A DNA stretch of 30,806 nucleotides from Spirogloea muscicola (taxonomy: Eukaryota > Streptophyta > Zygnematophyceae > Spirogloeales > Spirogloeaceae): assembly GCA_009602725.1 (NCBI GenBank), contig WELB01000054.1, positions 118,393 through 149,198 on the forward strand, written 5' to 3'. Positions within the stretch are counted from its first letter, which is position 1, and each line of letters opens with the position of its first letter. A program made the position numbers and the translations under genes. Positions 623-23,090 of the stretch are shown piece by piece. The notes under the pieces were generated by a model. That model saw only the letters and a program-made list of their open reading frames with translations. It was not told the DNA's origin and did no database searches.

Positions 623-2385
623 NTGGCGGCTGCGCGGGCGGCCCGGCCTCGGCCCGCGTGGCAGGGCCGCGGCCACCTCGGCGCCGCGCTGCAGCTGCAA
701 CAAGGCGAGCATTTCGGCAGCCCCCCATTGGTTGCGATGAGTGGAGGGGGATACTCAAAGTCCGACATTTCAGCTCCTCAACCCTGGACTGCGGATTCAA
801 TTGCGGAAGCGCAGAAGCCCGCGAGCCTCAGCCCCAGCTCGAGGTCCAGGACTGTGCGGGCAGCGTGGACTTGGCACCGCTTGTTACAGGGTCGGGACTA
901 AGCATCCCGCAAGCACTGCTCCCGTTGAGCTTGTCGAAGTGGAAAAAATATTGGTGAAGGGGTTAGGCAGCTGCGCTTCTTGTTTCGCTCGGCAACTCAT
1001 CACTGACGTCCATTGCATGCAAGCTCCTGTTGCGGCTGTACAGGGGAGCGGTGGCGCTGCCGGGCGGCTGGCGGACGGGTCCAGGCTTCCCTCCTTGGCG
1101 TTGGCGCCCCAGAGGCCCTCGTCATTGCTGTTGTGGCGCTGCTCGTCTTCGGGCCCAAGGGCCTAGCCGAGGTGAAGCTTTTGTTGCAGTATGCGGAGCA
1201 CAGACCCACCGCTGCTGGCTTGGAGCTTGAAAGTCTCTGGGGTTTGCGACTTATTTGTTGGGCATTGTCTTGGGGTCGCTCACAGGTGGCTCGGAATCTG
1301 GGAAAGACATTACGAGCGTTCCAGCCCACGATACGAGAGCTGCAGGTAAGGCAGAACCCACATAGTGCCCGCCGCAGGTCGTGGGTGCAATTTATTCCTT
1401 CACACACAGGAGGCAAGGTTGCACGTGGAGCCACCATGCACCAGCTTGACGTGCGGCTGCTTGTCCTACCAAAAGAGCTCTGGCTTCCGCTAAGACTTTG
1501 TCATCTGTAGTGGCGTTCTTGCTCTCCTTGCTGACTGCCACTCACACTCTTCATCCTGCCGAAACAGCAAGTATCAGCCGAGTTTCGTAATACTCTCGAG
1601 CAAGAGATTGGGCTCGACGAACTCCGCAACCCTCCGCGGAGCTCCACTTTGCCTCCTCCCTCTTCCTCCACAGCGTCAGAGAGCCCCACGGCTTCATCAG
1701 TCGCTGATGCTTCAAAGCCGCCCTCCCCAGAAGGTCTTGTTGCGAGTGCCCTAAGCATGTTGTGCATGTTGCTTATGCTGTTCCATCCGTACCTCACTTC
1801 AGAGGTCACCAGGTCAAGAATTACTGTTTTTGTCCAAGCTTCTGTGCAGTATGAATTTACGCATTTAGCTCTCATAGCAACCGTGCTCGTTCAGATTTTG
1901 TAGAGCTTATGCTTGAATTGCATCAGTCGGTGACTGGGTGGAGATTTTGGACAGCTTGCGACCAGCGACCTGACGGTTGCTGCAGCGGTGGTCATGCAGC
2001 TTACACGCCCGACGACTACGCCCGGAAGACCGAGCAGCAGCTGCAGAGCCTCTCAGAAGAGGCGAGGAGAGGTGAGGGTGCGTCTTACATTGAGCAATGT
2101 GCCTACTGGAATGCGAGTCCACTTGTCTAGATCTTCGTCGCAGTTATTTTGAGTGCCGAAGACCTGAAGACTGGACTTGCAGTTAGCTTGCATTGAGCTC
2201 TACCAGCTGCTTGCGCCCTGCCCTCATGGGCATACCTTGTTTCTGCTTGTGCCATGGCCACAGCGTCGGAGCTGGCAGCATGGGGTGGCAGTCCGCCCAA
2301 GGAGAAGGAAAAGGTGCAGGAGCCAGCAGCGGCCCCTTCTGCTGCCAATGCAGAGCCGCAGCTGCCGCCTCCTAAGAATTCCTAA
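623..2385 (+). CDS. HCF106: Chloroplast Sec-independent translocase subunit Hcf106 (TatB)
   Basis: Hcf106 is the TatB subunit of the thylakoid Tat translocase, which with cpTatC forms the receptor for folded twin-arginine precursors. Supported exons are 1085-1171 (VGAPEALVIAVVALLVFGPK, the membrane helix with the conserved Glu and FGP hinge), 1286-1345 (amphipathic helix, VARNLGKTLRAFQPTIRELQ), 1568-1733 (EFRNTLEQEIGLDEL, typical of Hcf106 rather than Tha4), 2000-2071 and 2264-2385 (acidic, Pro-rich tail ending PPPKNS, TAA). Phases agree at every junction. Exon 1 is less certain. Bases 624-626 on read as the second half of an ATG if the N at 623 is A, giving an Ala/Arg-rich transit-like peptide. 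Exon 1 may end at 853 (joining 1085) or at 890 (joining an acceptor before 1044), giving 245 or 271 residues. The 114-base intron 1172-1285 has no stop and is a multiple of three. Confidence 0.85.
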
Positions 2386-5602: not shown

Positions 5603-5829
5603 TGTGGTCGGACGGGCAAAGGTCACACAGGGCCCGAACCTTGGCCAGTTTCATTGACTGGTCTCAATAGATGCACACAAGGATCTGGCTGGCTGTTACC
5701 CTTCTGCTACTGCATAGCTACGGAGCATTGCGCAATCAGTGCGCCACACGGCATGGTAGAATTGCTACCAGTCCAGTGGTTTAAATCGCATCGAATTGCC
5801 AGCATCCACCAACTCGATGCTAATTGCCG

Positions 5830-6817
5830 CTACAATGGAACCTCCATGCCAGTACGCTGGTGCCACTGTGCGATGCTTTCCTCAGGGTACTCGTCAAACT
5901 GCTTGTCTTTGGACCCGATGGCGGGCTGCACCCAGCTGGCTTTGGAGCCGAGCATGAGATGCGTTTGCTCTGGCGCCTGTGGCAGGTCGCTGTCAATGGC
6001 TGTCGCAAACGGGTGAACAAGCTCCGGCCACGTGGGGTCATAGAGGAACAGAGCGGAGCCGCAGAGCTTGCAGAAAGCGCGGTATGCTGTGCTCGGCTGC
6101 CACGGCAGCAACGCAATTGACACAACATGGGCAAGTTTGTGAGGCTCACTTGGCAATATGGACATTGGACGTCGCTGAGAGACAAGGTGCTGAGATAGCT
6201 GCCCAACTCAGAAAGCCTACTCAAGAGCGCGCCAGCAAGTGGGCTCCCTGGATCCAGCACCTGCGGTAGAACTGCAGAGCCGTAGCTCGCACGCCAGTGG
6301 CGTACAGAAAGCTGGGGGAAGGGACCCACCTCGGGCTTGTCTTGGCCGGGCCGCTGGATGATGGCGTGGTAGCGACCGACGTGCTCCTCGCCGTCAAGCT
6401 GCGGAGCGGCGCCGCCGCCGTGAGCACGCCATGCATGGGGAGAGCTGCCGCAGAGCTGCCAAGGTCCGGACGCCGAGGCGGCGGCGACCACTGGTGCGCT
6501 GGCCACGACGGCGGCGGTGGAGCGTCCGCCTCCCACCTTCAGCGTGCCATAGTCGCCAGCGAGGTTGATGGCGGAGCCGCCGCCGCCGGACTTGCAGCAG
6601 GGTGTGCAGTAGCAGAGCTGCGAGCGGGCGAGCGGAGGAGACGAGGGGCCCAATACATAAATTCCGCAGGCGTGCTAGCCGCCGCCGCAGCCGCCGCCGC
6701 CGCCGCCGCCGCTGCGGGCGCCGGAGCCGCCGCGTCGAGTACCTGGTACGGCACTGGGTGCTGCGAGTTGACCTCGAACGTGACGGCCTGGCAGTGGCAG
6801 GACCCCTTGAGCAGCAT
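5830..6817 (-). CDS. GFA/CENP-V family zinc-binding protein
   Basis: The family includes bacterial glutathione-dependent formaldehyde-activating enzyme homologues and eukaryotic CENP-V-like proteins. They share a small zinc fold; most members have no proven substrate. Exons on the minus strand are 6817-6743, 6617-6537, 6398-6330 and 6096-5830, all GT-AG and phase 0, giving 163 residues. Visible motifs are MLLKGSCHCQAVTFEV (C7, C9), LCYCTPCCK (C27, C29, C32 or C33), HVGRYHAIIQ, FCKLCGSALFL (C84, C87), then HPFATAID and an aromatic-rich tail ending GMEVPL. These cysteine groups match the expected zinc ligands. The start at 6817 was chosen because bacterial members begin with the same M-L-L-K-G-S-C-H-C. 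An in-frame ATG at 7027 would add an Ala-rich extension through a (GGC)n repeat. Formaldehyde metabolism should not be assumed. Confidence 0.9.
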
Positions 6818-7110
6818 CTTCCGCAAGGCCCCGGCGGCGGCGGCGGCGGCGGCGGAGGTCGCGGCGGCGAACGCGGCGGCTGTCGCGGGGGACACGGCCC
6901 CACGGCACGGAGGTCGTCCAGAGCCTGACGCCCAGTGGGCTGTGACAGACTCCAAATAAAAACCCTGCACCCAAAAAACCTCGACTCGGCCCAAAAACGA
7001 GAAAAAGCTCGTCCAATCCCGCAGCATACGTGTGTATTAAGAGATGGGGAGGCCATGTGCGGCCAAGTACAAAGGTAAGTACATTGACAAATGTACGTCA
7101 CCTGCTGCTA
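6818..7110 (-). other. 5' flank of the GFA gene, GC-rich
   Basis: The region holds imperfect (GGC)n at about 6833-6880 and then a more AT-balanced stretch. It is the likely 5' UTR and promoter of the minus-strand GFA gene. No TATA-like element or other site could be assigned with confidence. Confidence 0.4.
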
Positions 7111-7129
7111 AGCTGACCCGGTCAGTAGA

Positions 7130-7388
7130 GAGAAGGCGCGCGGTGCGCATGAAATTGAAAGGGAGGCCAATTCTAGCCTTACAAATGTCCTGTTAACTGG
7201 GTAATGAGCTGGCTAAGGGGGACGCTAATATCCCCGAGTAAGCACATGCATATCTGACAAGCTATACTGAGGAGCCGAACCACCTCCACGGAAGCCATTA
7301 GCCTGGGCTAATGCACGACCAGCACGCTGGTGAATCGCGAGTGCTTGGGAGCGCTGCAGACTCAATGATAGCCTCATCCTATAACATG
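7130..7388 (-). repeat. SDLRLLTRGY repeat, copy R1
   Basis: The minus-strand frame 7388-7225 reads RMRLSLSLQRSQALAIHQ, then RAGRALAQANGFRGGG and SLSDMHVLTRGY with a TAG stop. It is the best-preserved minus-strand copy of the dispersed peptide-coding repeat. Against copy R6 many codons differ only at silent positions (AGG/CGC for Arg, TTA/CTC for Leu, TCA/TCG for Ser). A degenerate hairpin-like segment lies beyond the stop at about 7135-7180. Function unknown. Confidence 0.65.
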
Positions 7389-7482
7389 CAACGATGGCTT
7401 GCGGGACGCTAGAATGGCCTAAGCTACCCGCCCGACTACATCGGCGGGCATCAACATGCAGTGCCAGGCAATGGAACAATGG

Positions 7483-7650
7483 TCAGTAACCACGACTCAG
7501 CACATAGAGGTCGCTAGCTGATGCTCGAATACCGGACGGCAATCGACAAGCTCTTGAACTACCAGGAAAGGCTCGACCAGCTTTCTGGTGCAACGCATAA
7601 GCCTGAGCTCGCTGCAGACAAGCGGACACTCGACATCGCAGAAATGACAG
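7483..7650 (-). repeat. SDLRLLTRGY repeat, copy R2
   Basis: The minus-strand frame reads RCRVSACLQRAQAYALHQ, then KAGRAFPG and ASASDLYVLSRGY with a TGA stop at 7485-7483. It is arranged head to tail with copy R1, about 95 bases apart. It is more diverged in the middle than at the two ends, but the frame is intact. Confidence 0.6.
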
Positions 7651-9310
7651 ATAGGCTGCCGGCATACCCATCTGGGCTGGAATCATATCCTCGCGTCGTG
7701 CATATCCCAGACTCGCTATGTTCTCGAGTAGGGTATGGAAGCGAGGACCCAAGCAGCCAAAAGTGTCGATTGCGGCCGGGAGGAGGTTGTCGCTGCGGGG
7801 GTAGTCAGAAGTAGTCTAGGGAATGGGCGCGTTGCATATGAAATTGTGCATGAAATGAAAGAGAGGCCCAAAGCCAATGCACTTTCCAGGCAATGTAAGA
7901 CAAGGGCTGTGAGAGGCCAGCCCAAAGAAATGTACACAAGGGATAAAATTAGTAGTCCCACTAGTGACTGATCGTGCCATTGAGATAGTCTCTGGTCCTC
8001 CATGGCCAGTGACGCACCTTGGTGTTGCCTGCGCTCGGGTTGTATGCAGTAGAGAAAGCGCTTGTCACCGAGTGGCCATGACTCAATCCCACTGAGGGAT
8101 GCTTAATGTCAAACAGGAAAGATCTATTTAACCCCAATCATCAGCAGAAACACTGAGCAAGCAGGCACAAGCAATAAGTATAACAGCAAGCAACGTGCTT
8201 TTCACTCCTGCATCCTGTGCTTCCTGCTTGTGACGACGTGCAGCACTTAAGAATGACAAGGACGGTTCGGGTGATAGCAAGGCCTCTTTCTTCCTTGTTT
8301 TGGTCTGCAACTTGCTTGCATAATCGGCAATTGTAGAGCTGATTACAGAGCTCGCTGAATGGACCTTGTTTCTCAACAGCGAACATGCAAAAGGGAAGCA
8401 TGACTTGTCTATGATGGGTGCCGGAACTCGTGGTTGTTGCTCAAGGCTGGCTGCCTCCACTGTAGGCGCAGGGACAGGGTCTGGAGCCCAACCAATTATG
8501 GAACGTAGTCGTGGTCGCTAAAGAAAGCTTGTTCTTCTTACTTCAACATGCATAGCATGCTAGCCGCTTGTTGGCCAATTCAAGGTGCACTCATCGGACA
8601 TCATCAATACCCGTTTGAAAAGAACGTCAGAGTAGGCTGACACCGTGATCAGACACAACATGGTAGCCAGCCTCACTCTCCACATCTGACGTTCTTCAGA
8701 TTCTACAGCCACCAAGTAGTCAGCATCCCTCATCACTCGTTTAGTGACAGGAGTCGCTTACAATCACCCCGACCAATGAGAACGGACTAGGACGTGCGCG
8801 CGGAAGGAGCCGGACTCATGCCTGTCGAAGTGGCGCTCTCCCTCGACTGTGAAGCAAGTCACTCTTTACAGCATATGACAACTTTAAGGACAATTCTTGC
8901 CCTGAAGAACTTCAGCTCAACAAGCACTCTGTAGTAACTGTACAACTTGAAGTACCCAACCAAGAGCTGAATGTCAACCGATCTAGGTGACGAGCAACCC
9001 AACAGCACGCGCAAATCTTCGTTGCTACGACCATGTGCACGCATCTTGATATGCATTCACATGCTTACCTGCTGCTATGTTGGGTATGAAGAAAACAACA
9101 CATGACCTGCAGCAAACAGGGGTCTTCAGGCCAACTGTACGGTCCGTCACGATCTGTGCTTTCTGGGTTGGGGACCCCCCCACGCAGGCGATAAGGGAGT
9201 TACATTGAGTGCACCATTCAGAGAAAACGCTTAGGTGGGGGTCAACGAGCTAGCCGTACTTGCGGCCTGGAGATAGAGCAGCAGCTCTTCCGAGGGGGCG
9301 AGGGCCGTGA
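7651..9310. other. Gene-poor stretch with degenerate repeats
   Basis: No recognisable gene. A hairpin/CCAGCCCAAA segment typical of the dispersed repeat lies at about 7906-7937. A minus-strand frame at 8460-8128 (110 codons) ends in a hydrophobic stretch (LLAVILIACACLLSV) that could be a tail anchor, but it has no recognisable relative and no paired evidence, so it is not called as a gene. An imperfect inverted repeat lies at 8620-8696. Confidence 0.5.
8620..8696. repeat. Imperfect inverted repeat
   Basis: AAGAACGTCAGA near 8620 recurs inverted as TCTGACGTTCTT ending at 8696. Inside it GTAGGCTGAC pairs with a near-copy of GTCAGCCTAC, interrupted by a few unpaired bases. It could be a small foldback element or a remnant of one. 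Confidence 0.55.
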
Positions 9311-9475
9311 AAAGGAAGGGCTCGCCCATTGAGGATAGGGGCTGGACAAGCCAGCCCAAAAAAGATGATGAATAAAGTACGAGAAGGGGGCCAGGGGAAG
9401 CGCTGAGAAAGACAAGCACACAAAGAAACAAAAGCAGCTACGATTCCCTCAGTACCCCCTGCCGAAAAGCCAGTC
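9311..9475 (-). repeat. Hairpin-end repeat S1 (minus orientation)
   Basis: GCTCGCCCATTGAGGATAGG is followed by the GGGCTGG/CCAGCCC hairpin, an A-run and a purine-rich stretch. The copy matches 9623-9775 over about 150 bases in the same orientation. The peptide tail that normally follows is degraded here. Confidence 0.75.
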
Positions 9476-9510
9476 CACAAAAGGTGAACAAGGTCCTGGG
9501 GAGCCGGAAA

Positions 9511-9577
9511 GCTGTTTGTTCATTCTTTTTTGGGCTGGCTTGTCCAGCCCCTATCCTCAATGGGCGAGCCCTTTCCT
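9511..9577 (+). repeat. Hairpin-end repeat S2 (plus orientation)
   Basis: This is the reverse complement of the S1, S3 and S4 ends: GTTCATTCTTTTTTGGGCTG, hairpin, then CTATCCTCAATGGGCGAGCC. With S3 it forms an inverted pair with arms of about 55 bases and a spacer of about 45. Confidence 0.8.
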
Positions 9578-9622
9578 GAAAGCGCAGCGACCACTGAGGG
9601 GTGCCTCGCTAATCGAAGGAAG

Positions 9623-9790
9623 TGCTCGCCCATTGAGGATAGGGGCTGAAAAAGCCAGCCCAAAAAAGAATGAACAAAGCACGAAAAGGAGGCCAGGGGA
9701 AGCGCTAAGAAAGACGAGCACGAAAAGAAACAAAGAAGCTGCGAATCACTCAGTAAACCTTAGCCTGCTAAGCAGCCGCAGATCAGAGAT
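9623..9790 (-). repeat. Hairpin-end repeat S3 with degraded peptide tail
   Basis: Hairpin at about 9642-9661, AAAAAAGAATGAACAAAGC, about 85 bases of purine-rich sequence, then on the minus strand a readable tail SDLRLLSR at 9790-9760 that has lost the usual GY-stop. It shows that the hairpin and the peptide tail belong to the same element. Confidence 0.75.
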
Positions 9791-9838
9791 GCTAGGCTCC
9801 TGGAAGTGGGTCCCCTGGCCACTCCCTTCTCAGCAGGA

Positions 9839-9905
9839 GAAGGGCTCGCCCATTGAGGATAGGGGCTGGAAAAGCCAGCCCAAAAAAGAATGAACAATGT
9901 ACGAG
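9839..9905 (-). repeat. Hairpin-end repeat S4
   Basis: Near-identical to the first 65 bases of S3 (GCTCGCCCATTGAGGATAGG, hairpin, AAAAAAGAATGAACAA), then diverging. It lies about 450 bases before the first ABC gene. Confidence 0.8.
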
Positions 9906-9909
9906 AAGG

Positions 9910-10353
9910 GGGGCAGGAGGGGTGGTTTTGGGGAGAAGGATGGTGGTCATCGAGTAGCTCTGCGTTGACGCCTGGTCAGCCCAAGTCAACGACCAGCGCG
10001 GAGCGCACCCATTGGCCAACACGCCCGCTGGATGCGGCCGAGCGCCCCGGCCGGCAGATTCCCCTCCGTCGTCGGCGGAGCACCCCAGAGCCCGCCGCCG
10101 CCGCCGCCGCCGGGCATCGCGGCGCGCTCCGCGGCGTGCTCCGCGGCGCGCANGCGGCGGCGGCGCCTTCCGCGGCGGCGGCCTGGTCATCGATCACCGG
10201 AGAGCGTCAGACCAAGCGGTACTGCTGGGCACACTGTTGGTGGATCAGAGGAACAGATTGATACCAGCGTCATCTGAGACGATATTCCCATTGGGAATCC
10301 TGACGGCTGGGTGCTGACCCCGCTGCGGCGCGGTCGCCGGCGAGCGCGCTGCG
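9910..10353 (+). other. 5' flank of ABC copy 1 with N at 10153
   Basis: GC-rich with (CCG)n at about 10095-10117 and an unresolved base at 10153. GGCAGATTCCC at about 10053 recurs twice upstream of ABC copy 2, so the promoter region may have been duplicated with the gene. No gene is seen in this stretch. Confidence 0.45.
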
Positions 10354-13300
10354 ATGAGCGCCGCGGAGGCGGCGCCGCGGCCGCGCTCCGCGTCCCATGC
10401 CGCCGTCGACGACAAGGTGAGCCTTTCGGGCCGCTAGAGACTGTGCCTCGCTCTCTGTGGCACACTCAGGACCGGTCCGCCGTCAAGGCCTGCGCATCTC
10501 GGCGTGTGGCCGCAGGTAGCGGAGCTCGAGCCGCTTCCGGAGACGAGCCACCGGCACCTGCCGCGCCGCTTCTTCGACATCGCGAGCAGCTACTTTGTTG
10601 GCGATCAGCGGTGGAAGGCGCGCAGCCTCATGGCCGTGATGCTCGCCCTCACTGTCGGCAAGACCGGTGAGCAGTGTGGGCACGACTATGCAACTTTCAG
10701 CTTCGGACACCCTCGAGCACACAGGTCTCTCTCGCAGCTCCGCTGCTGCCTGCTCGGCATTTCAGCCTCGCAGAGTCCTCCCTGCAACCTGATGCCGTCT
10801 TGACTTCAGGCCAGGGGTCGTTGACTGTGCCTTGATATCTTCATGCTCTTTTGTTGGTGTGGCCAAAGGTGTCAGGGTGTTGATGTCATATACGCAGCGG
10901 GACTTCACCACTGCCATGGCAAAGAGGGACAAGGACGCGTTCTACTTCTCAATCGCCAAATACCTCGTCCTTGTCCTTGTTCTTTCGCCACTGGCTGCCT
11001 TGTACGACTACATGAAGGTGTGAACTTCGCCACCACATCTTGACGCTATGGCACTTCGCTCAGACTCCCTTCAGACCTGCATCGTCAATGGGCATGACGA
11101 GTGACTTGGTGGCCTTCGACAAGTTCAGGGCGTTCTGGTCCTGGAGTGGAGGGTGTGGCTGACAGAATCTATCTTGGCGCGGTATTTCGGTAAGTCCAAG
11201 GGTACAATGCCAAACCCCAGACCTTGCTGCTCAGTGCTTACTGATCATCAAAGCTGGAAGCTGAAATCTAGAATCAACACCTTGCACAAGCAGCAACAAG
11301 GGGAAGCTGCCACTGGGCTGGTCCGTAAGCTACCAGTAATATGCTATGTTCTCACTGGTGAAGCCAATAGGGCCTACTTTGAGGTCAAGATGAATGGGAA
11401 AATAGACAATCCCGATCAGCGCATCTGTGAGGACACCTCCAACTTCGTGCAGACAACAGTTAGCATCCTCATGATCCTTGCCGACAAGGTCTTGAACTTG
11501 GCAGCCTTTGCTGGGGTGCTCTGGTAAGATCAGCTTCTTGCTGCATCCATGTTTGATCAGCAAGCTCCAGGCTAGCCATGCAGAGTATGCAGCACTGTGT
11601 GTCATCCTTTATGTCAACCTGCGAGAGTAGATGCACTTCAGAGTTGCCATTTTCTTTTGACTTGAGAAGGTGCCACAACTCTATGACAACAGTTTCAGAC
11701 TCCTCACCATGCTGATTATAAGAGCAACTTTGCTCGGGCAGGTCAATCTCTCCGACACTTGTGTACTTCATCATGTCCTACTCTGTTCTGGGAACCATTG
11801 TGACAGTCCAGCTATTCGGCCTCAAGCTGATGAGCCTGCAATATGAGGTAATCAGAGCATGCACTTCAGCTCAGAAGTGGTGAAAGTAGGGGTTGCTTTA
11901 ATTGAGACGCAAAGTACATACCCCTGTGCTTTGACATTACCTGCTAGCAATAACAAGCCAGTCAGTCCTCCTGTCTCTGCTTACCATCTTGACACGTTGT
12001 CATTCACAGCGTTTCCAACGTGAGGCAGACCTCCGGTATTCACTTGTTCGCGTGCGCGACAGTGCCGAGTCCATCGCTTTCTACCGCGGCGAACCCAGGG
12101 AGCTGGCGTGTGTGACTGTGAGCTGTACAAGAACCTTGCAACCATACGGGCATGTCAAAGATGATGACCACATAAGATTGTGTGATTTCTATGCAGGCTT
12201 GGCTGACAACGTCTCCAAGTCCTAGATGTGGAGGCCTGTTTCTGACCCTGACAATTTGGAGCCAACTTCCTAAATTGCATGGAAATCTGTACGCAGCGCT
12301 TCCTGAGCCTGCTGGTGCAAAACACATGGGAGCGCTTACTGTGGCACCGGCACTTGGGCATATTCATTAATCTCTATGACCACGTGACAATCGTTGTCCC
12401 GTCCCTGATCATTGCCCGGCAGTACTTTGCGGGCGAGGTGATCATCCTCCCTGCAGCACAGCAAGCATCTCAGCATTTACATGTCAGGTCTGAAATTGGC
12501 AAGGCATGTCTCTGCTGGTCCTTCAGGGCGGGCCACACTTCATGGGGATGCCCTCTTTGATCCTGCAAAGGTGGTCTGGAACATGATTTGGAGCCTTGCT
12601 GGAAAGTCATGCAGCTGCTGCAGTCTACTTCGTCGGGCTTGGCTAAAAGGGCTGCTGATACTGCAGGTGGAGTTTGGCGTTGTGACCCAGACTGCTTATG
12701 CCTTCACTACTATTCTGCATGCACTCATGGTGTTTGTCACCAAGTTTGAGGATCTCAGGTCAAAGCTCACGAGAATACTAGAGGCATTTGTTCTCTTAAT
12801 GCTCATTGGTATGCATAGCAACAGCTCCGCATATATGACACTGCAGGCTAGCCTTGATACAAGTAGCTGTGCTGCAGCTATCTGAAGATGAGTTTAGCCT
12901 ATCCCCATTCAAGTCCCCATGTTGTCAGGGCACTAGCTCATCAGTCATACAATCACACATCCTGTGCTTTTGACTGAGCTGCAGTGGTCTGGCAGCCAAG
13001 ACGGAGCGCTTGGACGGCCTATTGCGGTCCTTGGGCTTCCAGTCAGAAGGTTCTTGCAGTGGTGACGCCACTGTGTTGGTCTCAGGGAAAGGGAATGATG
13101 CGGTGCATCTTAAGAAAGAGCCACCAGATAAGAGCGAGTTGGAGCTCTCCAAAACCGGAGGCTGGGTTGGAGACTCTGAACCTTTGCTCCACAGCGTTAT
13201 TCCCATCCAAGCTAATGAAGGTACGTGACTGCCCTCCTGCCTTGGTCCAAGAGTCTAAGTACCAATTAAGATCTGACTCCAACGGTTTGACCGGCCGTTC

Positions 13301-14815
13301 TGAACAAGTCTGTGACTAGAAGCATTGGGCACCAAACAGACAGGAGAGCTGAGGAGCTTGCTGACATCAATAGACAATCTTCTGCTTGGCGTCTTGAAGG
13401 AGGGGAGATTCTCCACGAGGAAGCAGACACGCTCTCGCTGCAGGGCGTGTCCCTTGCGACGCCAGACCGGCAGCACATCTTATTCGAGCAGCTGACATTC
13501 TCGCTTGGCAAGGGTGAGGCTCTGCTCATCATGGGCCCATCAGGATGCGGCAAGTCGTCGCTGCTGCGGGCCATCGCCGGGCTCTGGCGTGCCGGCGAGG
13601 GAGTGATAAGGCTGCCGCCTGCTGAGGAGGTCTTCTTCCTCCCGCAGAAGCCGTACATGCCTCAAGGATCACTCCGGACACAGGTCTCAGGCGAACCTGC
13701 AAATCGTCACTTTCCCCACAAGATTGCTAAATAGCCATACCATGCCTGGAAGTTCTAGCACAAGAATTACCATGTCCTCCACAAGTTTAGATTGCTGTGA
13801 AGGCAAAGCTGGCAAGCCTTGGGTGGCTCACTGGCAGCGCCGAGCTTCACATTGTCGACTAATTGGATCATTCTGTGGCCTCCTTGCGCAGCTGCTGTTC
13901 CCGAAAGAGAGTGTCAAAGGCAAGGAAGTGGATGATGCGGAACTGGTCAATGTGCTGGTCGATGTGGCTCTTGAAGCGCTGCCGAACCGCGTGGGGGGCT
14001 TGAATGCCAAGTGCAACTGGTCCGACATGCTGAGCTCCGGCGAGCAGCAGCGCATCGCGTTCGCCCGTGTTGTGTTGCATGCAAGTGCATGCAACCTCCT
14101 CCACGCTGGTCCATTCCTCATACACAGGATATTGCAGTGAATGGTCTGGTACTGAAGCCAATGTGTAGCTTGTAAGCCGAATAATTAGCAACATATAAGT
14201 GGTTGCAGTTGCACCTGGCACAGCTTTCAGGAGTTGCATAGGTGCTGCAAATCTGGCTGCAAATTCCGGCTTTGCTGTCGGAAAGTGGAGTCTGTCACCC
14301 ATGGAGACTGAGATCCCCCTTGTGGTACGCAGCGGCCTGCCATTGCGTTCCTGGACGAAGCCACGAGCGCATTGGACAGCGCAAACGAGGCGAAGCTGTA
14401 CAACCTTCTGCGGCAGCATGTGGGCAGCTACGTCAGCGTCGGTCACCGTCCGTCCCTCCTCCAATTTCACACACAGGTACCAGCTGCACTGCCACCAGCT
14501 TTGCCTCCAACTCATCGTGAGCTGGTAGATTGCTCCATCATGCAGTGCTCTTTGTAAAGGACGTACATTCTCTGCACAGTCAACATGCTTGTATACACGA
14601 TTGGTCGCCTGACAAGGACCCTGCGCTGGTGGCCAGAGTGCACTTTTCGCATTCTCATCCACAGTACCGCCACCTGAATTGGGCACCTCCTTCTCTGAGA
14701 GATGTGCCGCTTGGGTGCGTTCACATGCGAGCAGGTGCTGCACGTCACGGAGGACGGCCGCTGGAACCTCTGCAAGGCGGAGGAGTTTCAAGTGGCCCAG
14801 TCTCGAGCTCAATGA
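10354..14815 (+). CDS. ABC half-transporter, YddA/SbmA-BacA (ABCD2-like) type, copy 1
   Basis: Membrane domain followed by nucleotide-binding domain, working as a dimer; the family exports or imports varied cargo and the substrate here is unknown. Fourteen exons: 10354-10416, 10516-10666, 10869-11017, 11129-11189, 11364-11523, 11742-11847, 12010-12117, 12297-12437, 12667-12758, 12985-13220, 13400-13683, 13892-14080, 14333-14476, 14735-14815, giving 654 residues. Membrane domain: [14 protein letters not shown] (53-66), family motif NPDQRICED (157-165), helices near 173-195 and 200-220. NBD: Walker [10 protein letters not shown] (468-476), Q-loop Q505, signature LSSGEQQ (564-570), Walker B with D588-E589, H618. 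All are intact. Intron 12 has a GC donor (CAT, then GCAAGT). The N-terminus is short and not a clear transit peptide, so the membrane it serves is unresolved. Residues 344-423 are a variable linker. Confidence 0.9.
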
Positions 14816-15117
14816 GCCCACTCCTTTGGAGGATGCCAGAGTTTTGCAGGGAGCATCGCTTGCTCCCAGCTTGAAGAGAACTGGTGCCTTGGAGATTCCT
14901 TCTGTACTATGGAGACAGAGAGCTGCGCATTGTGCAGCTAGTGCCGGGCCCTTTGACTTGTACAGTCATGCTTATGATGCAATTGCTCGGGTCCGAGTGC
15001 AGAGCCTGAGTCTCAACACCTTTGCCAGGCCTCTGTTTGACAAGGACTCGGCTGACATTTTTGGCGCCTCATGGCAGCCCTTGCAGTGCACAGCGACAGG
15101 ATATTTGGAGAACCTTC
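14816..15117 (+). other. 3' flank of ABC copy 1, homologous to that of copy 2
   Basis: This stretch can be aligned with 21423-21720 after copy 2 (shared GGTGCCTTGGAGATTCC-like and TTTTTGGCGC blocks). The duplication therefore included DNA past the stop codon. It is probably 3' UTR. Confidence 0.65.
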
Positions 15118-15122
15118 TGTAA
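15118..15122 (+). terminator. TGTAA poly(A) signal for ABC copy 1
   Basis: TGTAA lies 303 bases after the stop codon of copy 1, at the far end of the block shared with copy 2. Confidence 0.5.
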
Positions 15123-15860
15123 CACAAACATTCCTTACTCATGGCACCATTGCCAACAGATAATTTGTAAGGAATACACTTGTCAAGCTAAAGTACCAGG
15201 TTTGCGACTTCGGAAATAACAGGAAGAGCTGCCACAGCTCACGAAAAAGTCTCCTATGACAGGCGTGGTTGGTGAGTGATGTAGTGAGGTGATCGTTACC
15301 AGTTGATTTGCGGATCGTGTCAGCCCAAGTGTGCCCCTGTGCCAGCAGGTTGAGCTTAGAAGCTTCACAATAAGGCAGTGGTAAGTATTCTTGGCTGCTA
15401 GCTACTCCGGGCTGCCGCTGTTCATCAGGGGTTGTTGATTACCCACTTGAAGTAGCCACATGCTAGCTGGTGGTTTGTGTCTGGCCCTTGGGACCGCTTA
15501 CATCCTGAGCTGGCCTTTCACACCCTCGCGCCCTGTGGAGGAGCTTCAGTCAGTAAGGTAGTACAAGCTCTGCCATCGCCGCCACCACCGATGGCCCGCC
15601 CTTTGACATACCCGCCGCCTCCTCCAACACCACGATCGCCTCAGCTGCAACTTTTTGGACTTCCGGCTGCTGACGACGATCAATGAGCGGCCATACGTGG
15701 TTGTCACTTGCTTTCCCAGGTAGACACGCTTTCCGGCTCCTTCAGATAGTCCTTCATATGGCTGGCATATCACAGCCATCGCCCCTTGGGAAGAGCTTTG
15801 CACCAGAAAGCCTGGACGAGCTCTAGTTGGTGGCAGAAACGAAAGTACTTCCCAAAAATG
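15123..15860. other. Intergenic, no gene recognised
   Basis: Short Pro-rich frames such as that at 15477-15686 have no recognisable relatives. A long minus-strand frame (16289-15546) runs through but derives its only familiar part from the repeat copy R3. Nothing else is supported. Confidence 0.5.
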
Positions 15861-15863
15861 GGT

Positions 15864-16110
15864 GATGGCTGTGAAAAGGCCAGTCCAATGATTGAGGGAC
15901 GAGGTCAAAGGGGCAGGAAAATGCTGCACCACAAAGCTACGCAAGTGGCTACTACGAATGGGTTGCTCACGACCCCTAGTCAGCAGCCGCAAGTCAGAAT
16001 AGGAAGCAGCCGGGATCTTCCCACTGCGGTAAGACTTGAGAGCAGCAGCCAACAGGCGAAACGCCAGCAAGTGCTTTTGCAAACGCCTGAAAGGGCTGGA
16101 GCGAGCCTTC
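15864..16110 (-). repeat. SDLRLLTRGY repeat, copy R3
   Basis: A degenerate hairpin (GGCTGTGAAAAGGCCAGTCC) lies at about 15867-15886. About 75 bases on, the minus strand reads AASYSDLRLLTRG preceded by RRLQKHLLAFRLLAAALKS. The usual Tyr-stop is replaced by Arg-Glu-Gln, so the frame runs on and forms part of a 247-codon open frame (16289-15546). The head is diverged from copies R1 and R6. Confidence 0.6.
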
Positions 16111-16310
16111 TTGACGCATGCCGACCACCTGACCGAGCAAACAGCGGCATCGAAGCCGGGCTGCCCGACTTGATGGTCTTGGCGTCGGCTGATCGCTCGC
16201 TCTGGACCTTGATTCTTCCTTTGTTGGCTGGCTTCCCTTGGCCCTTTGACCTTTGTTCGTTCTTTCTTCCGGGCTTTCAAGGCCCTCATCCCCTCTTCAG
16301 GCCTTGTACA

Positions 16311-16350
16311 TTCCTCTGGGCTGGCCTCTCACAGCCCTTGCTCTACACTG
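16311..16350 (+). repeat. Isolated hairpin-end repeat fragment
   Basis: CTGGGCTGGCCTCTCACAGC resembles the element hairpin in plus orientation, preceded by a GTACATTCC segment like the GTTCATTC of other copies. No peptide tail is seen upstream. Confidence 0.4.
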
Positions 16351-16480
16351 GAAAAGCCGTTTGTTTCTTTTGAGAGTAGCTGCTTCTTCTTCCTCGAATC
16401 CACGGATAAATTACTAACAGCCAGCCCGAGAGTCGGACGGCGATAACGACGATAGGAAAAGCGCGGCCAGATTGACTGGT

Positions 16481-16632
16481 GGCTGGGAAAGGCCAGCCCA
16501 AAGGGATGGACAAGGTCTGAAGGAGGCGGAGCGCGAAAGGACTAGGACTAAGACATCAGCCAGAGGACGCTCAGTAACCTTTAGTCAGGAGATGCAAGTC
16601 TGAGTGGCTAGCCGGCGGAAAGACGATAGGCT
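16481..16632 (-). repeat. SDLRLLTRGY repeat, copy R4 (tail only)
   Basis: Hairpin (GGCTGGGAAAGGCCAGCCCA) at 16481-16500, then 70 bases on the minus-strand tail PPASHSDLHLLTKGY with TGA at 16573-16571. The head is missing: the element is cut off where the GC-rich 5' flank of ABC copy 2 begins, so this may be a duplication breakpoint. Confidence 0.65.
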
Positions 16633-16707
16633 TCCGAGCTCTGCCATAAGTCAACACCGCAGCGTGGCGGAGATTCGCGGAGATTCGCAAAAGCGACGGC
16701 GGGATGC

Positions 16708-16770
16708 CGCCGCTGCCGGCCGGCAGATTCCCTCCACCCGCCGCTGCCGGCGAGCAGATTCCCTCCACCC
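16708..16770 (+). repeat. Two-unit tandem repeat upstream of ABC copy 2
   Basis: Two roughly 31-base units share GCAGATTCCCTCCACCC (about 16724-16739 and 16754-16770). The core GCAGATTCCC also occurs upstream of copy 1 near 10054. It is a possible promoter element or a byproduct of duplication; nothing shows binding. Confidence 0.5.
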
Positions 16771-16881
16771 CCCGCGAGAGGCCGGGGTTCAACTCTCCGG
16801 CGGTCCGCGGCGGCGTCGATGCGGCCGTGGCGGCGTCCATCTCCACAGCGCCACGGCTTCGGCTGGCGGCGCAGAAGCGCG

Positions 16882-19800
16882 ATGAGCGCCGCGGCGGCGG
16901 CGGCTCTGCGGCAGCGGCCTGCGCCCGGCGCCGCCGTCGACAACGACGACGAGGTGGCCCAGAGGCTGCGTCTCGTCTCGAACCATTGGCGCAGCGATGG
17001 TGTCCTCCATGGTGGTCTTGGGACCCGTCCGCCATTGAGGCCTGCGCCCGCTCGGCGTGGTTGCAGATGGCGGAGCTCGTGCCGCCGCCGAGTGCAAGCC
17101 AGCGGCGCCTGCCGCGCCGCTTCTTCGCCATCGCGAGCGGCTACTTCGTCGGCGACCAGCGGTGGAAGGCGCGCGGCCTCGTGGCCGCCATGCTCGTCCT
17201 CTCCGTCGCCAAAACCAGTGAGCAGTCCAACCATCGATCGTAAGACCTTCGAGCGCAGTGTCGCTTTCGCAGCCCCAGCGCAACCTGACTGAAAAGTATC
17301 AGCAGCCCTTGTATTCGTCTGCAAATGGATGCTGTCCTGACTCGAGATAAGGTGGTCAATTGGGCTGCACCACACGGGCTACCTGCACGGTACACAAATG
17401 CACGATCAACGGGGAGGCATTGTCCAGACGGCTGACAGAAATATCTCCATGCTCCCTGCCTGATGTGGCCGAAGGTATAAAGGTGTTGATGTCATACACG
17501 TCGCGGGACTTCACCAGTGCAATGGCAAAGATGGACAAGGACGCATTCTACTTCTCCGTTGGGAAATACCTTGTCATTATCCTGGTCGCTTCGCCGCTCT
17601 TTGCCTTAAACGACTACATGAAGGTGACTATGCCATCACGTCCTTGTGCTCTGTGACCGTCCAACTTGACTGACCTGAGACCATCTTTGTGTTACTATTA
17701 GTCTCGGTGGGCAGAAGAGTGAATCATCGGTCTTGTCAATGACAATCTGCTCTGCTTCTGTCACTGCAGGGCGTTTTGGTCCTGCAGTGGAGGGTGTGGC
17801 TGACGAAATCTATCTTGGTGCAATATTTTGGTGAGTCCAAGGAACGCAAAGCCGAGCCCCAAAGCTGCCACTCCCTGCTTACCAAGCAGCATGCCGAACG
17901 CTAGAATCTCCATCCAACAGCCCTGCACAAGCAGCTACAAGCTGGTCAAAGATCTGACAATATATTGTCACTCTCTATTTGGTGAAGCCAATAGGGCCTA
18001 CTTTGAGGTCAAGATGAATGGGAATATCGACAACCCTGACCAACGCATCTCTGAGGACACCTCCAACTTCGTGCGAACAACTGTTAGCCTCTTCATGATC
18101 CTTGTTGACAAGGTCTTGAGCTTGACAGCATTTGGTGGGGTGCTCTGGTGAGCACAGCCTCGTGCTGCATTTAGTTCTTCTCAGCTGCATTCAGGCTCCA
18201 GGCTGTCCCTTCAGGGCATGCAGGCGTGCTGACAAAGCAGCAACATGTGTCATCTATAATGTCAACTTGCAGAGAGTAGATGTGCTTTGGTATTGCAGCT
18301 CTTTGTGGGGTTGGGATAATGCGAGTGTCGACAGGATGATAACCGTTTTCAGACTGCAAGAGCATGCTGTTTGCCAATATTCTATTCTTGCTTTAGCAGG
18401 TCAATTTCTCCAAACCTTGTTTACTTCATCATTGCCTACTCCGTCCTCGGGACGTTTATGACAATCCAGCTGTTCGGCCTCAAGCTGATGAGTCTGCAGT
18501 TTGAGGTGAACACAGCATGTGCTTCAGGTCAGAATGCATGAAGCTAGGGATTGTTTTCCTGGTGCAAATTACCTACTCCTGTGCTCTGGAACCGTCGCTC
18601 CAGCAAAGCAAAAGCCAGCCAGTTAGTCTTCCTTTCTCTGCCTCTTACCTTCTTACCTTCTTGACACAAGGACTCACGTTGTCGTCACAGCGATTTCAAC
18701 GTGAAGCAGACCTCCGGTATTCGCTTGTTCGCGTGCGCGACAGTGCCGAGTCAATCGCTTTCTACCGTGGCGAGCCCAGAGAGCTGGCATGTGTCACTGT
18801 GAGCTGCACACTTCCTTTGCAAATGTGCAGGCATGTCAAAGATGATGACTGGGTAAGAAAGCGTAGTTTCTCTGGAAGGTCAGCTGACACATCAAATTTG
18901 GCTGGCTTTCCTAAAGGGCCTGCCTCTGAAAGTCGCAGCCCACCTTCCTGAGTTGCTCGGCTTTGCTTGATCCAGCGCTTCCTGAACCTTTTGGTGAAAA
19001 ATACGTGGGAGCGCTTATTGTGGCACCGCCATCTGGGCCTTTTCATTAGTCTCTATGACCACGCGACGATTGTTGTCCCGTCCCTGATAATAGCCCGGCA
19101 GTTCTTTGCGGGCGAGGTAATCCTCCCAAAGCACAGCAAGCAAGGAGCAGTGGATAGAATGTTTTCAGGTCTGGAAATGGCAGGCATGTCTCTGCTCCCC
19201 TTGTTTGAATACCCTCTCTGGTCCTGCAAGATGGTATGACAGGTGAGACCAAGCCTCGTTGAGTTCATGCAGCTGCTGCAGCCAAATGCAATCTACTGCA
19301 TTGGGATCGTCTGACAATACATTCGCTGCTAATGCAGGTGGAGTTTGGCGTGGTGACCCAGACTCGCTATGCCTTTTCTACCATTCTGCATGCACTCATG
19401 GTTTTTGTCACAAAGTTTGAGGATCTCAGGTCAAAGCCCATGAGAGCTGCTACAGGCTCTTCTTCTCTTTAGAGTCCTTGAATGCATTGCAACAGCACTG
19501 CATGCATGACAGTGCGCAGGTTACAGTTGCTTCAAGTAGCAAATTGGCGTCACCTAATGGAGATTGTGATAACCCCTCCTAAAGCCCCCATGTTGTCTAG
19601 CTCATCAGTCATATATTCACACCATCTGTACTCTTGACTGACTTGCAGTGGTTTGGCAGCTAAGACGAAGCGCTTAGACGGCCTATTGCGGTCTTTGGGC
19701 TTTCAATCAACAGACTTTGGCATTGGCGTAGCAACAGTCTTAGTCCCAGGGAAAAGCACTGTACCAGCTAAGAAAGAGCCCTCAGATAAGAGCGAAATGG

Positions 19801-21422
19801 AGCTCTCCGAAAGGGGAGGCTTAGTCGGAGAAGCTGAACCTTTGCTTCACAGTGCTATTCGAGTCACTGAAGGTACGCAAGTTGCTGCTGGAGACTCTGA
19901 ACCTTTTCTTATAGAAATTATAGAAGGTACGCTGATTACATTTGTTCTGTCCTGCTTGGCGCAAGTTTTCAAGACATGTTTTTCTCTAGGAACTCAGAAT
20001 GAAATACTGGCACTTTTGTTTCAACTGCGATGTCATGACTAGAAGCATCGTGCACCAAGAGACAGGAAAGCTGAGGGGCTTGCTGAGTTTGATAGATACT
20101 CTTCTTCTTACATTGTCGAAGGAGGACATATTCTTCACAAGGAAGCAGACACGCTCTCGCTGCAGGGCGTGTCTCTTGCGACGCCAGACTGGCGCCACAT
20201 CCTATTTGAGCAGCTGACATTCTCGCTGGACAAGGGTGAGGCTTTGCTCATCACGGGCCCATCAGGATGCGGCAAGTCATCGCTGCTGCGGGCCATTGCG
20301 GGACTATGGCGTGCCGGCGAGGGCGTCATCACGCTGCCGCCTGTTGAGGATGTCTTCTTCCTTCCGCAGAAGCCTTACATGCCCCAAGGATCACTCCGGA
20401 CACAGGTCTCGGGCAAGCCGCCTCCTCCTCAGCCTCAAAGATGCCAGTTAGCCATACAATGCCCGTTTTCTTGAAGCATGTATACACAAATTTTGTGAAG
20501 GCATCACAATGTCGACTCACATGTACCACTTTGTGGCCTCCTTCCACAGCTGCTGTTTCCAAAAGAAGGCAAGGAGGTAAACGATAAGGAACTGCTGAAT
20601 TTGCTGTGCGATGTGGCTCTTGGAACGCTGCCAGATCGCGTGGGGGGTCTGGACGCCAAGTGCAATTGGTCCGACATGCTGAGCTCCGGCGAGCAGCAGC
20701 GCATCGCTTTTGCCCGTGTCGTCCTGCATGCAAGTGCCTGCAACATCCTCCACCAGGGCTGATTAGCTGGGATTACAGACTCAGCTGCTGTTGTACCTGG
20801 CAAGCAGAAGTTGCAGTGTTGCAATGACAGTAATTTGCCTTCGCAGTAAGCCTTGCAACAGTAGGAGCTGGAACACGACACCCATGCAGATTGAGAATCT
20901 TCTTGTGGTGTGCAGCGGCCTGCCATCGCATTCCTGGACGAAGCCACAAGCGCAGTGGACAGTGTAAACGAGTTTAAGCTATACAGCCTTCTGCGGCAGC
21001 ATGTGAGCAGCTACGTCAGCGTGGGTCATCGCCTGTCCCTCCTCCAATTTCACACACAGGTAACAATGACCCTGCACAACGTCCTGGCTCTTCTCAGATC
21101 TGCTTGTAGGTTGGCATCCTTTCTCCATCATACACTGCGATCAAGGAGAGTGTTCTTAATGTGCTTGTGTCAAGCTGCTCACACAAATTGACAGGTTTCA
21201 CAAGTCGCCCAGCAAAGACTCAGCGCCAGCCAAAGTGGTTTTGCCCATTCTCATCTCAATACACTGCAACCAGAATCTATCCACCTGAATTATTAGTACA
21301 TTCGTTGAGAGTTGGGCTTTGGTGCTGTCGCATACGAGCAGGTGCTGCATGTCACGGACGATGGCCGCTGGAAGCTCTGCAGCGCAGAGGAGTACCAAGT
21401 GGCCCAGTCGCGAGGTCAATGA
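16882..21422 (+). CDS. ABC half-transporter, YddA/SbmA-BacA (ABCD2-like) type, copy 2
   Basis: Closest to copy 1, with the same 14-exon plan and phases: 16882-16953, 17067-17217, 17475-17623, 17770-17830, 17988-18147, 18400-18505, 18691-18798, 18976-19116, 19338-19429, 19649-19926, 20122-20405, 20550-20729, 20916-21059, 21342-21422, giving 668 residues. The linker exon has a second in-phase donor at 19873, which gives 650 residues. In the 47-residue exon 8 it differs from copy 1 at six positions. NPDQRI is present, followed by SED in place of CED. The NBD keeps GPSGCGKSS, the [11 protein letters not shown]-loop, [17 protein letters not shown] and the His of VGHR; the D-loop is SAVD where copies 1 and 3 have SALD. 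Exon 12 is three codons shorter than in copy 1. Intron 12 again uses a GC donor (CAT, then GCAAGT). All catalytic residues are intact, so it is probably functional; the substrate is unknown. Confidence 0.9.
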
Positions 21423-22041
21423 ATGAGCCAAATCCGGTGTGCAGGAGACCGGCTTACTGTGACGAGGACTGTTTGCTCCCGGCTGATTACAGTGGGAGCC
21501 TTGGAGCTTCCTTGCCGTACCTCCGTGCTGGACGTAGCAGCACACATGCTCCTAGTGCTGGGCACTTCAATTTGTACAGGCATCGTTTTGATGCAAATAT
21601 TTGAGCTCGAGTGCAGAACCTGCCTCCTCAATACCTCTGCCAAGCGCTTTGCTGACAAGCACTGGGCTGGATTTTTTGGCGCATCCATGGCAGCCCTTAC
21701 GCCGCACATTAGCAGCATCACTCAGCATCGTTCTACCGTCAGTTCCGAGCCATCTTCAGTCATGGCTATTGCTGACGGCTCAATCCTGAAGAGGTCTTCA
21801 TTCATGCATTCTACGATCTGGCACATCAGAATTGACAGTTCAAAGCTGAATACTGTGTGATACATGTGGCAGGTCAACCACCTCTACCCTATTAGGTTCA
21901 TGGTCACCCTCATTTCGTGAATGTGTCAGTCCCCAGTCTGCCCTGGGCCTGCACCAGCTTGAAGGCTTACAGAAAAGGCAGTGGAAGAGCAAGAGATTGG
22001 AAAAAGAAAGGCTACTGAAGGACAAGGCGATGGCTATAACT
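21423..22041 (+). other. 3' flank of ABC copy 2
   Basis: The first 300 bases align with the 3' flank of copy 1; the rest shows no gene. I found no TGTAA in this stretch, so the poly(A) signal is either variant or further away. Confidence 0.5.
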
Positions 22042-22280
22042 GGTCAGCCCAAGGAAAGACGGGGCCAAACACCCTTCGGTGAAGCACACAGAGACTCAAG
22101 TGGTCACTGAGTGCTCAACATCCTCTGGTGAGCAGCCGCAGGTCAGAGAAAATAGTCTCCGGGAAGAAGTCCCATGTCTATGACCAGAGGCTGCAGCCAA
22201 AGCGCGACCGGCACGTAGATGCAATGCGTGTGCCATCGACGGCTGCAGCGATTTTGACAGGCGCATGCGATACACCTGGA
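22042..22280 (-). repeat. SDLRLLTRGY repeat, copy R5 (frameshifted)
   Basis: The minus-strand head reads YRMRLSKSLQPSMAHALHL, then RAGRALAAASGHRHG. The tail FSDLRLLTRGC with TGA lies in another frame, so an indel separates head and tail and the copy is broken. A GTCAGCCCAA segment lies beyond the stop at about 22043, where the hairpin half is expected. Confidence 0.65.
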
Positions 22281-22625
22281 CGCGAGAGCCAGCTGCCTTC
22301 AAGTCAGCCTGCTCCCCTTGGTGAGGTTGGGAGACCGCGCTGCGCGCTAGCCAGTGCAGGAGCTCGAGCCACCGAGCGTGAAGTGCTCAAGAGGCTGTGC
22401 ATGGCCAGCCCAGAACATATCACATGCAAATTCATGGAGGTGTGACGGGCATGAGTCTCTAAGCCCCCATTGAAAGGGTAGAAGTGCTTCTGTACGAAGA
22501 GCTGTGGCTGATAGGCGGCCATCCTGCATAACATCAGCTGGGGCTTACTTTTACAAAAATGAGACAGCGCAGCAGCAATGATCAGTCAAGCGCGCCCACT
22601 TAACAGCAGTAGGACAATAGCCTGA
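22281..22625. other. Intergenic between repeats R5 and R6
   Basis: No gene or recognisable element is seen, apart from a CCAGCCCA fragment near 22405. Confidence 0.4.
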
Positions 22626-22920
22626 GATCGGATGCGCCTCTCTGTATCCCTGCAGCGGTCCATGGCCCACGCTCTGCATCTGCGAGCTGGCCGTGCTCTC
22701 GCTGCGGGCTCTGGCTTTCGTCAGGGTGATAGCTTCCCGGCCGCTTGTCTGTCGGATCTGAGGCTCCTCACTGGTACTTATTGAGTGATCCATCCTCCCC
22801 CTGTTTTACCATAGCATCCTCAGGCCCCTTTGTAGCTGCTCACCGCTCTTAGGCCCCTCTGAACCTTTGTGAATTCTTTTTGGGCTGGCTTTTCGCAGCC
22901 CTTGCCCCCATTGGGAGGTG
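22626..22920 (+). repeat. SDLRLLTRGY repeat, copy R6 (best preserved)
   Basis: The plus-strand frame 22629-22784 reads RMRLSVSLQRSMAHALHL, then RAGRALAAGSGFRQGDSF and PAACLSDLRLLTGTY with TGA. About 100 bases past the stop comes TGAATTCTTTTTGGGCTGGC and the hairpin partner GCAGCCC at about 22894. The order coding, stop, hairpin is the same as in R3 and R4 read on their own strand. An in-frame stop lies just two codons before the first Arg, so the coding block is short or enters through a splice acceptor. Confidence 0.7.
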
Positions 22921-22948
22921 CCACTTCTTTCTTTGATCGCTTGCCCAT

Positions 22949-23090
22949 GTGTTCCGCATGCGGCGATCCATGTCCTCCCAACGTTCCCAGGCTCACGCAT
23001 TGCACTTGCAGGCTGGCAGCGGTTTGGCATCACCACCACCATCACTCACGACACGCTCCATGCTCCTACAGCAGCCGCAAGTGGGAACAA
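22949..23090 (+). repeat. SDLRLLTRGY repeat, copy R7 (head only)
   Basis: The plus-strand frame reads FRMRRSMSSQRSQAHALHLQ, then AGSGLAS and a diverged remainder; a trace of the tail (CAGCAGCCGCAAGT-like, inverted relative to the head) follows. It starts about 45 bases after the hairpin of R6, so R6 and R7 are tandem. Confidence 0.6.

Follow-up and report, generated by a model that had tools for sequence, protein, structure and literature searches.

Among the non-long-terminal-repeat retrotransposons, or long interspersed nuclear elements (LINEs), the clades that carry only a restriction-like endonuclease (RLE) are CRE, R2, R4 and NeSL, which are mostly target-specific, and HERO, many members of which are non-specific, according to one survey (PMC4640811). 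The same survey describes Dualen as encoding both an apurinic-type endonuclease and an RLE, and Utopia as associated with U2 small nuclear RNA (snRNA) genes and as occurring in Amoebozoa, SAR and Opisthokonta, not in Archaeplastida. Zepp, as presented in PMC8226300, is an L1 element of Chlorella and Coccomyxa with nested 3' ends. We analysed a stretch of 30,806 nucleotides of the green alga Spirogloea muscicola (contig WELB01000054.1; G000:C54:118393-149198), hereafter the window, from an assembly of 153,112,186 bases in 471 contigs. Rubisco small-subunit genes occur at four sites of this assembly (eight matches, two exon-like pieces per gene), consistent with a green alga or plant. The window contains a dispersed repeat that encodes a peptide ending in SDLRLLTRGY and a stop codon. 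We consider that this repeat is almost certainly the 3' end of an RLE-type LINE family, and we leave its clade within the RLE LINEs unassigned.

The SDLRLLTRGY-type tail, which an initial annotation of the window had pointed out, is real and not due to chance. A loose pattern of it (S-D-[LMI]-x-x-L-[TS]-[RK]-G-[YC]-stop, at most two mismatches) matched 181 times in 308 kb of fetched loci plus the window and never in the same sequence reversed; these loci are copy-enriched and partly overlap, and 181 is not a density. The window holds eight copies, on both strands: three intact copies and one frameshifted copy with head and tail, three with the tail only and one with the head only. Thus, the earlier statement that at least seven copies share head and tail was too generous. 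The intact copies are each in a single frame, at 7228-7380 (minus strand, R1), 7486-7638 (minus strand, R2) and 22629-22781 (plus strand, R6), and the tail-only copies are on the minus strand at 9758, 15969 and 16574. The frameshifted copy is on the minus strand (22118-22386), and the copy at 15969 lacks its stop. The proposed limits of 7212 to 23090 were too narrow, with copies reaching beyond them and the 3' untranslated region (UTR) of R2 extending to 7023.

The peptide belongs to a much longer protein. A genome search with 161 nt of R1 had 908 first-look candidates, from which 40 matches were scored, with 94-100% identity. Eight R1-like copies that were fetched have the same 3' end to within a few bases. 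Six (L002 and L004-L008) extend upstream of the R1 start, and in four of these (L004, L005, L007 and L008) the R1 frame stays open across the start point and runs upstream unbroken. A protein search with the adjoining upstream piece then yielded related open frames. The longer parent open frame that had been envisaged was found twice, as an open reading frame (ORF) of 1453 aa in locus L069, ending in SDLFVLTRGY and a stop, and one of 1488 aa in locus L071, ending in SDFLLLTRGY and a stop. Our full-length reading consists of these two frames; among other listed frames, of 1600 to 6921 aa and of 8839 aa (C66), the one checked, C66, spans a run of N and was rejected. Both proteins contain a reverse transcriptase (RT) domain (Pfam RVT_1, E 1e-14 in L069 and 3.9e-17 in L071), and the suggestion that the peptide may be the C-terminus of a mobile-element protein was therefore correct.

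Comparisons of the RT pointed to R2 as its best solved relative. When L069 alone was compared with solved structures, the R2 protein 9nl2 was matched with E 0.006, and a profile of eight copies matched R2Tg (9dou) and R2 (9nl3) best, with E 4.2e-6, followed by 8c8j (labelled RNA-directed DNA polymerase; 0.008), LINE-1 ORF2p (8uw3; 0.015) and 9nl2 (0.063). In NCBIfam, a model for group II intron RTs was matched with E 2.6e-8 and 1.1e-6, far short of its cut-off. In the alignment, the RT carries YADD, and a linker motif, E-W-L-[NR]-A-L-P, which resembles the ..INALP motif of R2, precedes a post-RT knuckle, CX1CX12HX3C, whose four ligands are invariant in eight copies. Both long ORFs have an N-terminal CCHC finger (CX2CX12HX3C) that aligns with the finger of R2Tg, an alignment that is by itself not significant.

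According to PMC5678591, RLEs are marked by a variant PD-(D/E)XK core, whose second helix bears the catalytic K within KX2KY; a conserved H is located at the first helix, and GXW follows the fourth strand. Downstream of the knuckle, we assigned by motif only H1260, D1301 and D1316 (D-x14-D) and K1344-x2-[H/K]-Y1348, which reads KLHKY in L071, and the putative RLE region ends in G-x2-W, of which L018 lacks the G. The SDLxxLTRGY peptide forms the last 50-odd residues of the protein, past the endonuclease motifs. The ORF runs from the CCHC zinc finger through the RT, the NALP linker with the knuckle and the RLE motifs to a C-terminal extension ending in SDLxxLTRGY. Judging by its conservation and position, and only by these, this extension probably belongs to the endonuclease/RNA-binding half of the complete protein.

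The extent of the element could be read in L069. A 5' boundary at query position 155-159 of L069:5000-5600 (minus strand) is common to six of 54 matching rows and lies about 45 nt ahead of the first in-frame ATG of L069, and the element spans about 4.4 kb from this boundary to the end of its 3' UTR. L069 has a 3' UTR of 133 nt and R1 one of 97 nt, and a 3'-terminal block ending in ..CGCGCGCCTTCTCTC is common to subfamily A, to which R1 belongs, and to the subfamily of L069. Thus, the longest fully read element, of about 4.4 kb, consists of a 5' leader that is very short, a single ORF of about 1420 codons and a 3' UTR of about 100-130 nt.

These features bear on whether the element could instead be an apurinic-endonuclease LINE (L1/Zepp-like or RTE) or a dual-endonuclease element of the Dualen/RandI kind, which are the LINE kinds reported from green algae. 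L1 and Dualen are named as LINEs of volvocine algae in PMC8226300, and Zepp likewise makes nested 3'-end arrays. However, the Pfam search at E up to 10 found no family besides RVT_1 in the ORF of L069 or L071, and thus no apurinic-type endonuclease; the six-copy 5' boundary so close to the ATG leaves no room for a second endonuclease upstream in L069; and the C-terminal motifs are those of an RLE, with R2 as the best match of the RT. We therefore regard an element of these kinds as unlikely. Dualen/RandI resembles the element as an RLE-bearing green-algal LINE, but differs in its additional apurinic-type endonuclease. Zepp is alike in its nested, heavily 5'-truncated copies, mostly 3' ends (PMC8226300), whereas it belongs to the L1 clade and the element described here is of the RLE type.

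R2 and the other RLE-only clades share with the element a single ORF with an N-terminal zinc finger, a central RT, the NALP linker, a knuckle and C-terminal RLE motifs with D..D and K-x2-K-Y, and the element differs from them in its knuckle spacing and its high copy number. HERO is alike in being RLE-only with many non-specific members (PMC4640811); HERO membership is defined by RT phylogeny, and the comparison here is by description. Utopia, of the NeSL clade, is alike in its single protein of the order zinc finger, RT, zinc finger and RLE, but it is tied to U2 snRNA genes, whereas the flanks of the element are dispersed.

The manner in which the copies end and begin was examined in 49 distinct subfamily-A copies, a sample in which copies shorter than the search peptide were undetectable. 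Apart from the reference copy, their start points are scattered between 265 and 2287 nt from the 3' end; three starts at 2287 nt may stem from the reference copy. This argues against a small multicopy host gene family for a peptide of 50-85 aa, as the initial annotation had alternatively proposed, because a gene of its own would have a common start. In favour of such a gene are the short intact frames and the silent bias among the window copies (R1 against R6, ratio of nonsynonymous to synonymous differences per site, pN/pS, 0.46). On the other hand, the same frame is the end of the two long RT proteins, and among the eight window copies three are tail-only and one is frameshifted. The host gene can hardly be the explanation.

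The same starting points bear on a non-autonomous short interspersed nuclear element (SINE) that has borrowed the 3' end of a LINE. Short copies of 265-350 nt with the LINE 3' end were common among those fetched, as such a SINE would predict, but there is no fixed 5' end in the 49 copies, and the longer fetched copies run on into the LINE ORF without a separate non-LINE head. A SINE is thus very improbable. A tRNA-derived SINE had been considered from weak A-box- and B-box-like words seen in R1 by eye, and was rejected, as the repeat proved to be LINE ORF and 3' UTR.

Returning to the RLE-type LINE, we compared the sequences flanking its subfamily-A copies. In 47 copies with both flanks, an identical flanking word of at least 7 nt was found in 15, against 6.3% of 2305 shuffled pairings, and one of at least 8 nt in seven, against 2.0%. 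The 3' flanks all differ, the first 8 nt included, in the 44 subfamily-A copies with a readable end (five of the 49 had none), whereas CRE, R2, R4 and NeSL are mostly target-specific. The element is therefore without evident target specificity and does not use a single site such as those in the U2 snRNA or 28S ribosomal RNA genes. Self-targeting in a head-to-tail manner, as in Zepp, was also considered; since neighbouring tails within 500 nt were in the same orientation in 24 cases and in opposite orientation in 21, it has no support, and this lack of orientation bias is a further difference from Zepp.

The clearest insertion case lies in the window. R1 (7128-7480, minus strand) is a 5'-truncated subfamily-A copy with the tail SDMHVLTRGY and a stop; its homology covers 7127-7475, and at the 5' junction a few bases are unmatched. 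Seven other genomic copies match R1 with 96.9-98.8% identity over 344-350 nt and have a 3' end equal within a few bases. The coding part of R1 (7228-7479) is followed by the 97-nt 3' UTR. R1 is flanked by a target-site duplication, TACTGACC, whose 3'-side copy is at 7120-7127 (GGTCAGTA on the plus strand) and whose 5'-side copy, at 7481-7488, overlaps the stop codon of R2, where R1 is inserted. R2 (7480-7815, minus strand; coding 7486-7809) is a subfamily-G tail ending in SDLYVLSRGY and a stop; over 108 aa it shares 71% identity with one copy from the sampled locus L075, and R1 separates it from its own 3' UTR at 7023-7119 (minus strand). In the subfamily-G copy of locus L043, the sequence continues uninterrupted through the insertion point, with the same 3' UTR sequence directly after the stop and one of the eight duplication bases different. 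Accordingly, R1 is nested in R2.

Truncation, duplication and an empty paralogous site are the marks of target-primed reverse transcription, a mechanism that we infer from established LINE biology. The endonuclease would nick DNA with a loose choice of site. At the nick, the RT would prime synthesis from the 3' end of the RNA of the element, and this synthesis would mostly stop early. The stump would then be joined in, and the left-over tail would happen to hold the stop and the 50-110 codons before it. On this view, the window tails would be non-functional relics, dead ends of target-primed reverse transcription.

Some findings weigh against the assignment to RLE-type LINEs. Judged by motif, the published RLE hallmarks all have counterparts in the element, with two differences: the end of the region is G-x2-W and the published motif is GXW, and the knuckle departs from the published spacing CX2-3CX7-8HX4C. 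A sequence search with the RLE region alone matched no solved nuclease, its best E being 0.84 to an unrelated protein. At least two of the 15 flanking repeats (L004 and L065) are only the TCTCTCT end of the element itself, and 32 of the 47 copies have no flanking repeat of 7 nt; the missing repeats may reflect age, misplaced breakpoints or absent duplications.

Selection on the peptide was considered at two levels. The silent codon differences noticed among the window copies are present: over 51 codons each, pN/pS was 0.46 for R1 and R6, 0.60 for R1 and R2 and 0.56 for R2 and R6, and third codon positions were the most diverged. Between diverged ORFs, the ratio for the tail was 0.28 (L069 and L071), 0.16 (L069 and L016), 0.16 (L069 and L018) and 0.33 (L071 and L016), and by region L069 and L071 gave 0.33 for the RT, 0.40 for the linker, 0.51 for the RLE and 0.68 for the N-terminal part; these values are only rough, because synonymous sites are near saturation in several pairs. 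Close pairs were noisier over the 54-codon tail (L069 and L026, 0.36; L069 and L029, 0.72; L026 and L029, 0.74), and whole-region ratios were 0.15-0.17 for L069 with L026 and with L029. In 48 gapless 51-codon tails, the pooled ratio was 0.11-0.49 across divergence classes, which is biased downwards because the copies were chosen by peptide similarity. There is thus purifying selection between subfamilies, the parent ORF is its most plausible target, and silent changes dominate because of it; the C-terminal extension is about as conserved as the RT. Selection on protein, as first claimed, is evident for the parent LINE ORFs rather than for the window copies themselves.

The family appears to be abundant. 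A genome search with the tail peptide gave 15,510 first-look candidates, and the 150 that were scored all had E below 4e-24. Ten 2.4-kb regions were sampled at a preset position; two consisted of N alone, and the eight readable ones (19.2 kb) contained about eight tails, all in two regions, and none in reversed sequence. This sample suggests tens of thousands of copies in the genome, with wide uncertainty. Over 878 codons, L026 and L029 hardly differ, and therefore some families were recently active.

The window holds further copies and fragments. Subfamily-B 3' ends are clustered at 9284-9917, in both orientations: one or more fragments at 9284-9471 (minus strand), including a repeat at 9315-9393; a fragment in opposite orientation at 9515-9573 (plus strand), an inverted repeat 95-98% complementary to 9620-9678 and 9840-9897; the tail S3 at 9617-9821 (minus strand), ..GTHFQEPSISDLRLLSR, with its stop lost and a 3' UTR; and a 3' UTR fragment at 9839-9917 (minus strand). 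The inverted repeats of this cluster, 50-59 nt and 95-100% complementary, could fold as hairpins in a transcript. The tail-only copy SDLRLLTRGR (15841-15998, minus strand) has lost its stop, and that of subfamily C (16451-16625, minus strand), VFPPASHSDLHLLTKGY with a stop and a 3' UTR, matches a copy in L059 with 93.6% identity over 16458-16613. The frameshifted tail occupies 22077-22386 (minus strand), with the head at 22168-22386 and the tail at 22118-22165 in another frame. R6 (22621-22951, plus strand) is a subfamily-E tail ending in SDLRLLTGTY and a stop, with a 3' UTR, and is 82% identical to L070 (22627-22951) and 90% identical over 51 aa to an E-type tail query. The degraded head-only copy FRMRRSMSSQRSQAHALHLQAG lies at 22937-23032 (plus strand), with its head at 22955-23032. 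A 46-nt inverted repeat at 7891-7936 and 16305-16350, 87% complementary and with matches in other loci, may be the 3' end of another LINE subfamily. Between 10.3 and 28 kb, the window also has a multi-exon ABC transporter gene in three diverged tandem copies, spaced by about 6.2-6.7 kb and each matching Pfam ABC_tran (E 3.3e-10, 5.3e-10 and 1e-9), with LINE tails between and around them.

Two rearranged copies were seen elsewhere in the genome. 5' inversions, produced by twin priming, are known from L1, and L077 resembles them: its segments at 1171-1299 (minus strand) and 1333-1577 (plus strand) are apparently one LINE copy, with the 5' part inverted relative to the 3' part. In L069, at 5638-6492 (minus strand), a truncated subfamily-B copy is fused in frame within another LINE tail, giving an open frame of 285 aa; chimeras of this type could be called genes by gene predictors.

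In summary, a candidate unknown gene family is removed, and several separate repeats of the window are explained together. The initial annotation knew of no family with this motif; in the open-licence PubMed Central literature, we likewise found neither the SDLxxLTRGY motif nor a green-algal RLE-only LINE described, which is not proof of absence, while the kind of element, the RLE-type LINE, is known. An RLE-only LINE in a green alga with a high copy number, no evident target specificity and a conserved C-terminal extension is mildly notable. Tentatively, and with somewhat less than even confidence, we propose that it represents an undescribed RLE-only LINE lineage of the green lineage that has lost target specificity, has multiplied to tens of thousands of copies within 153 Mb of genome, was active until recently and has a C-terminal extension constrained about as strongly as the RT. 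In this case, the C-terminal extension would add a new functional module to those known in RLE proteins.

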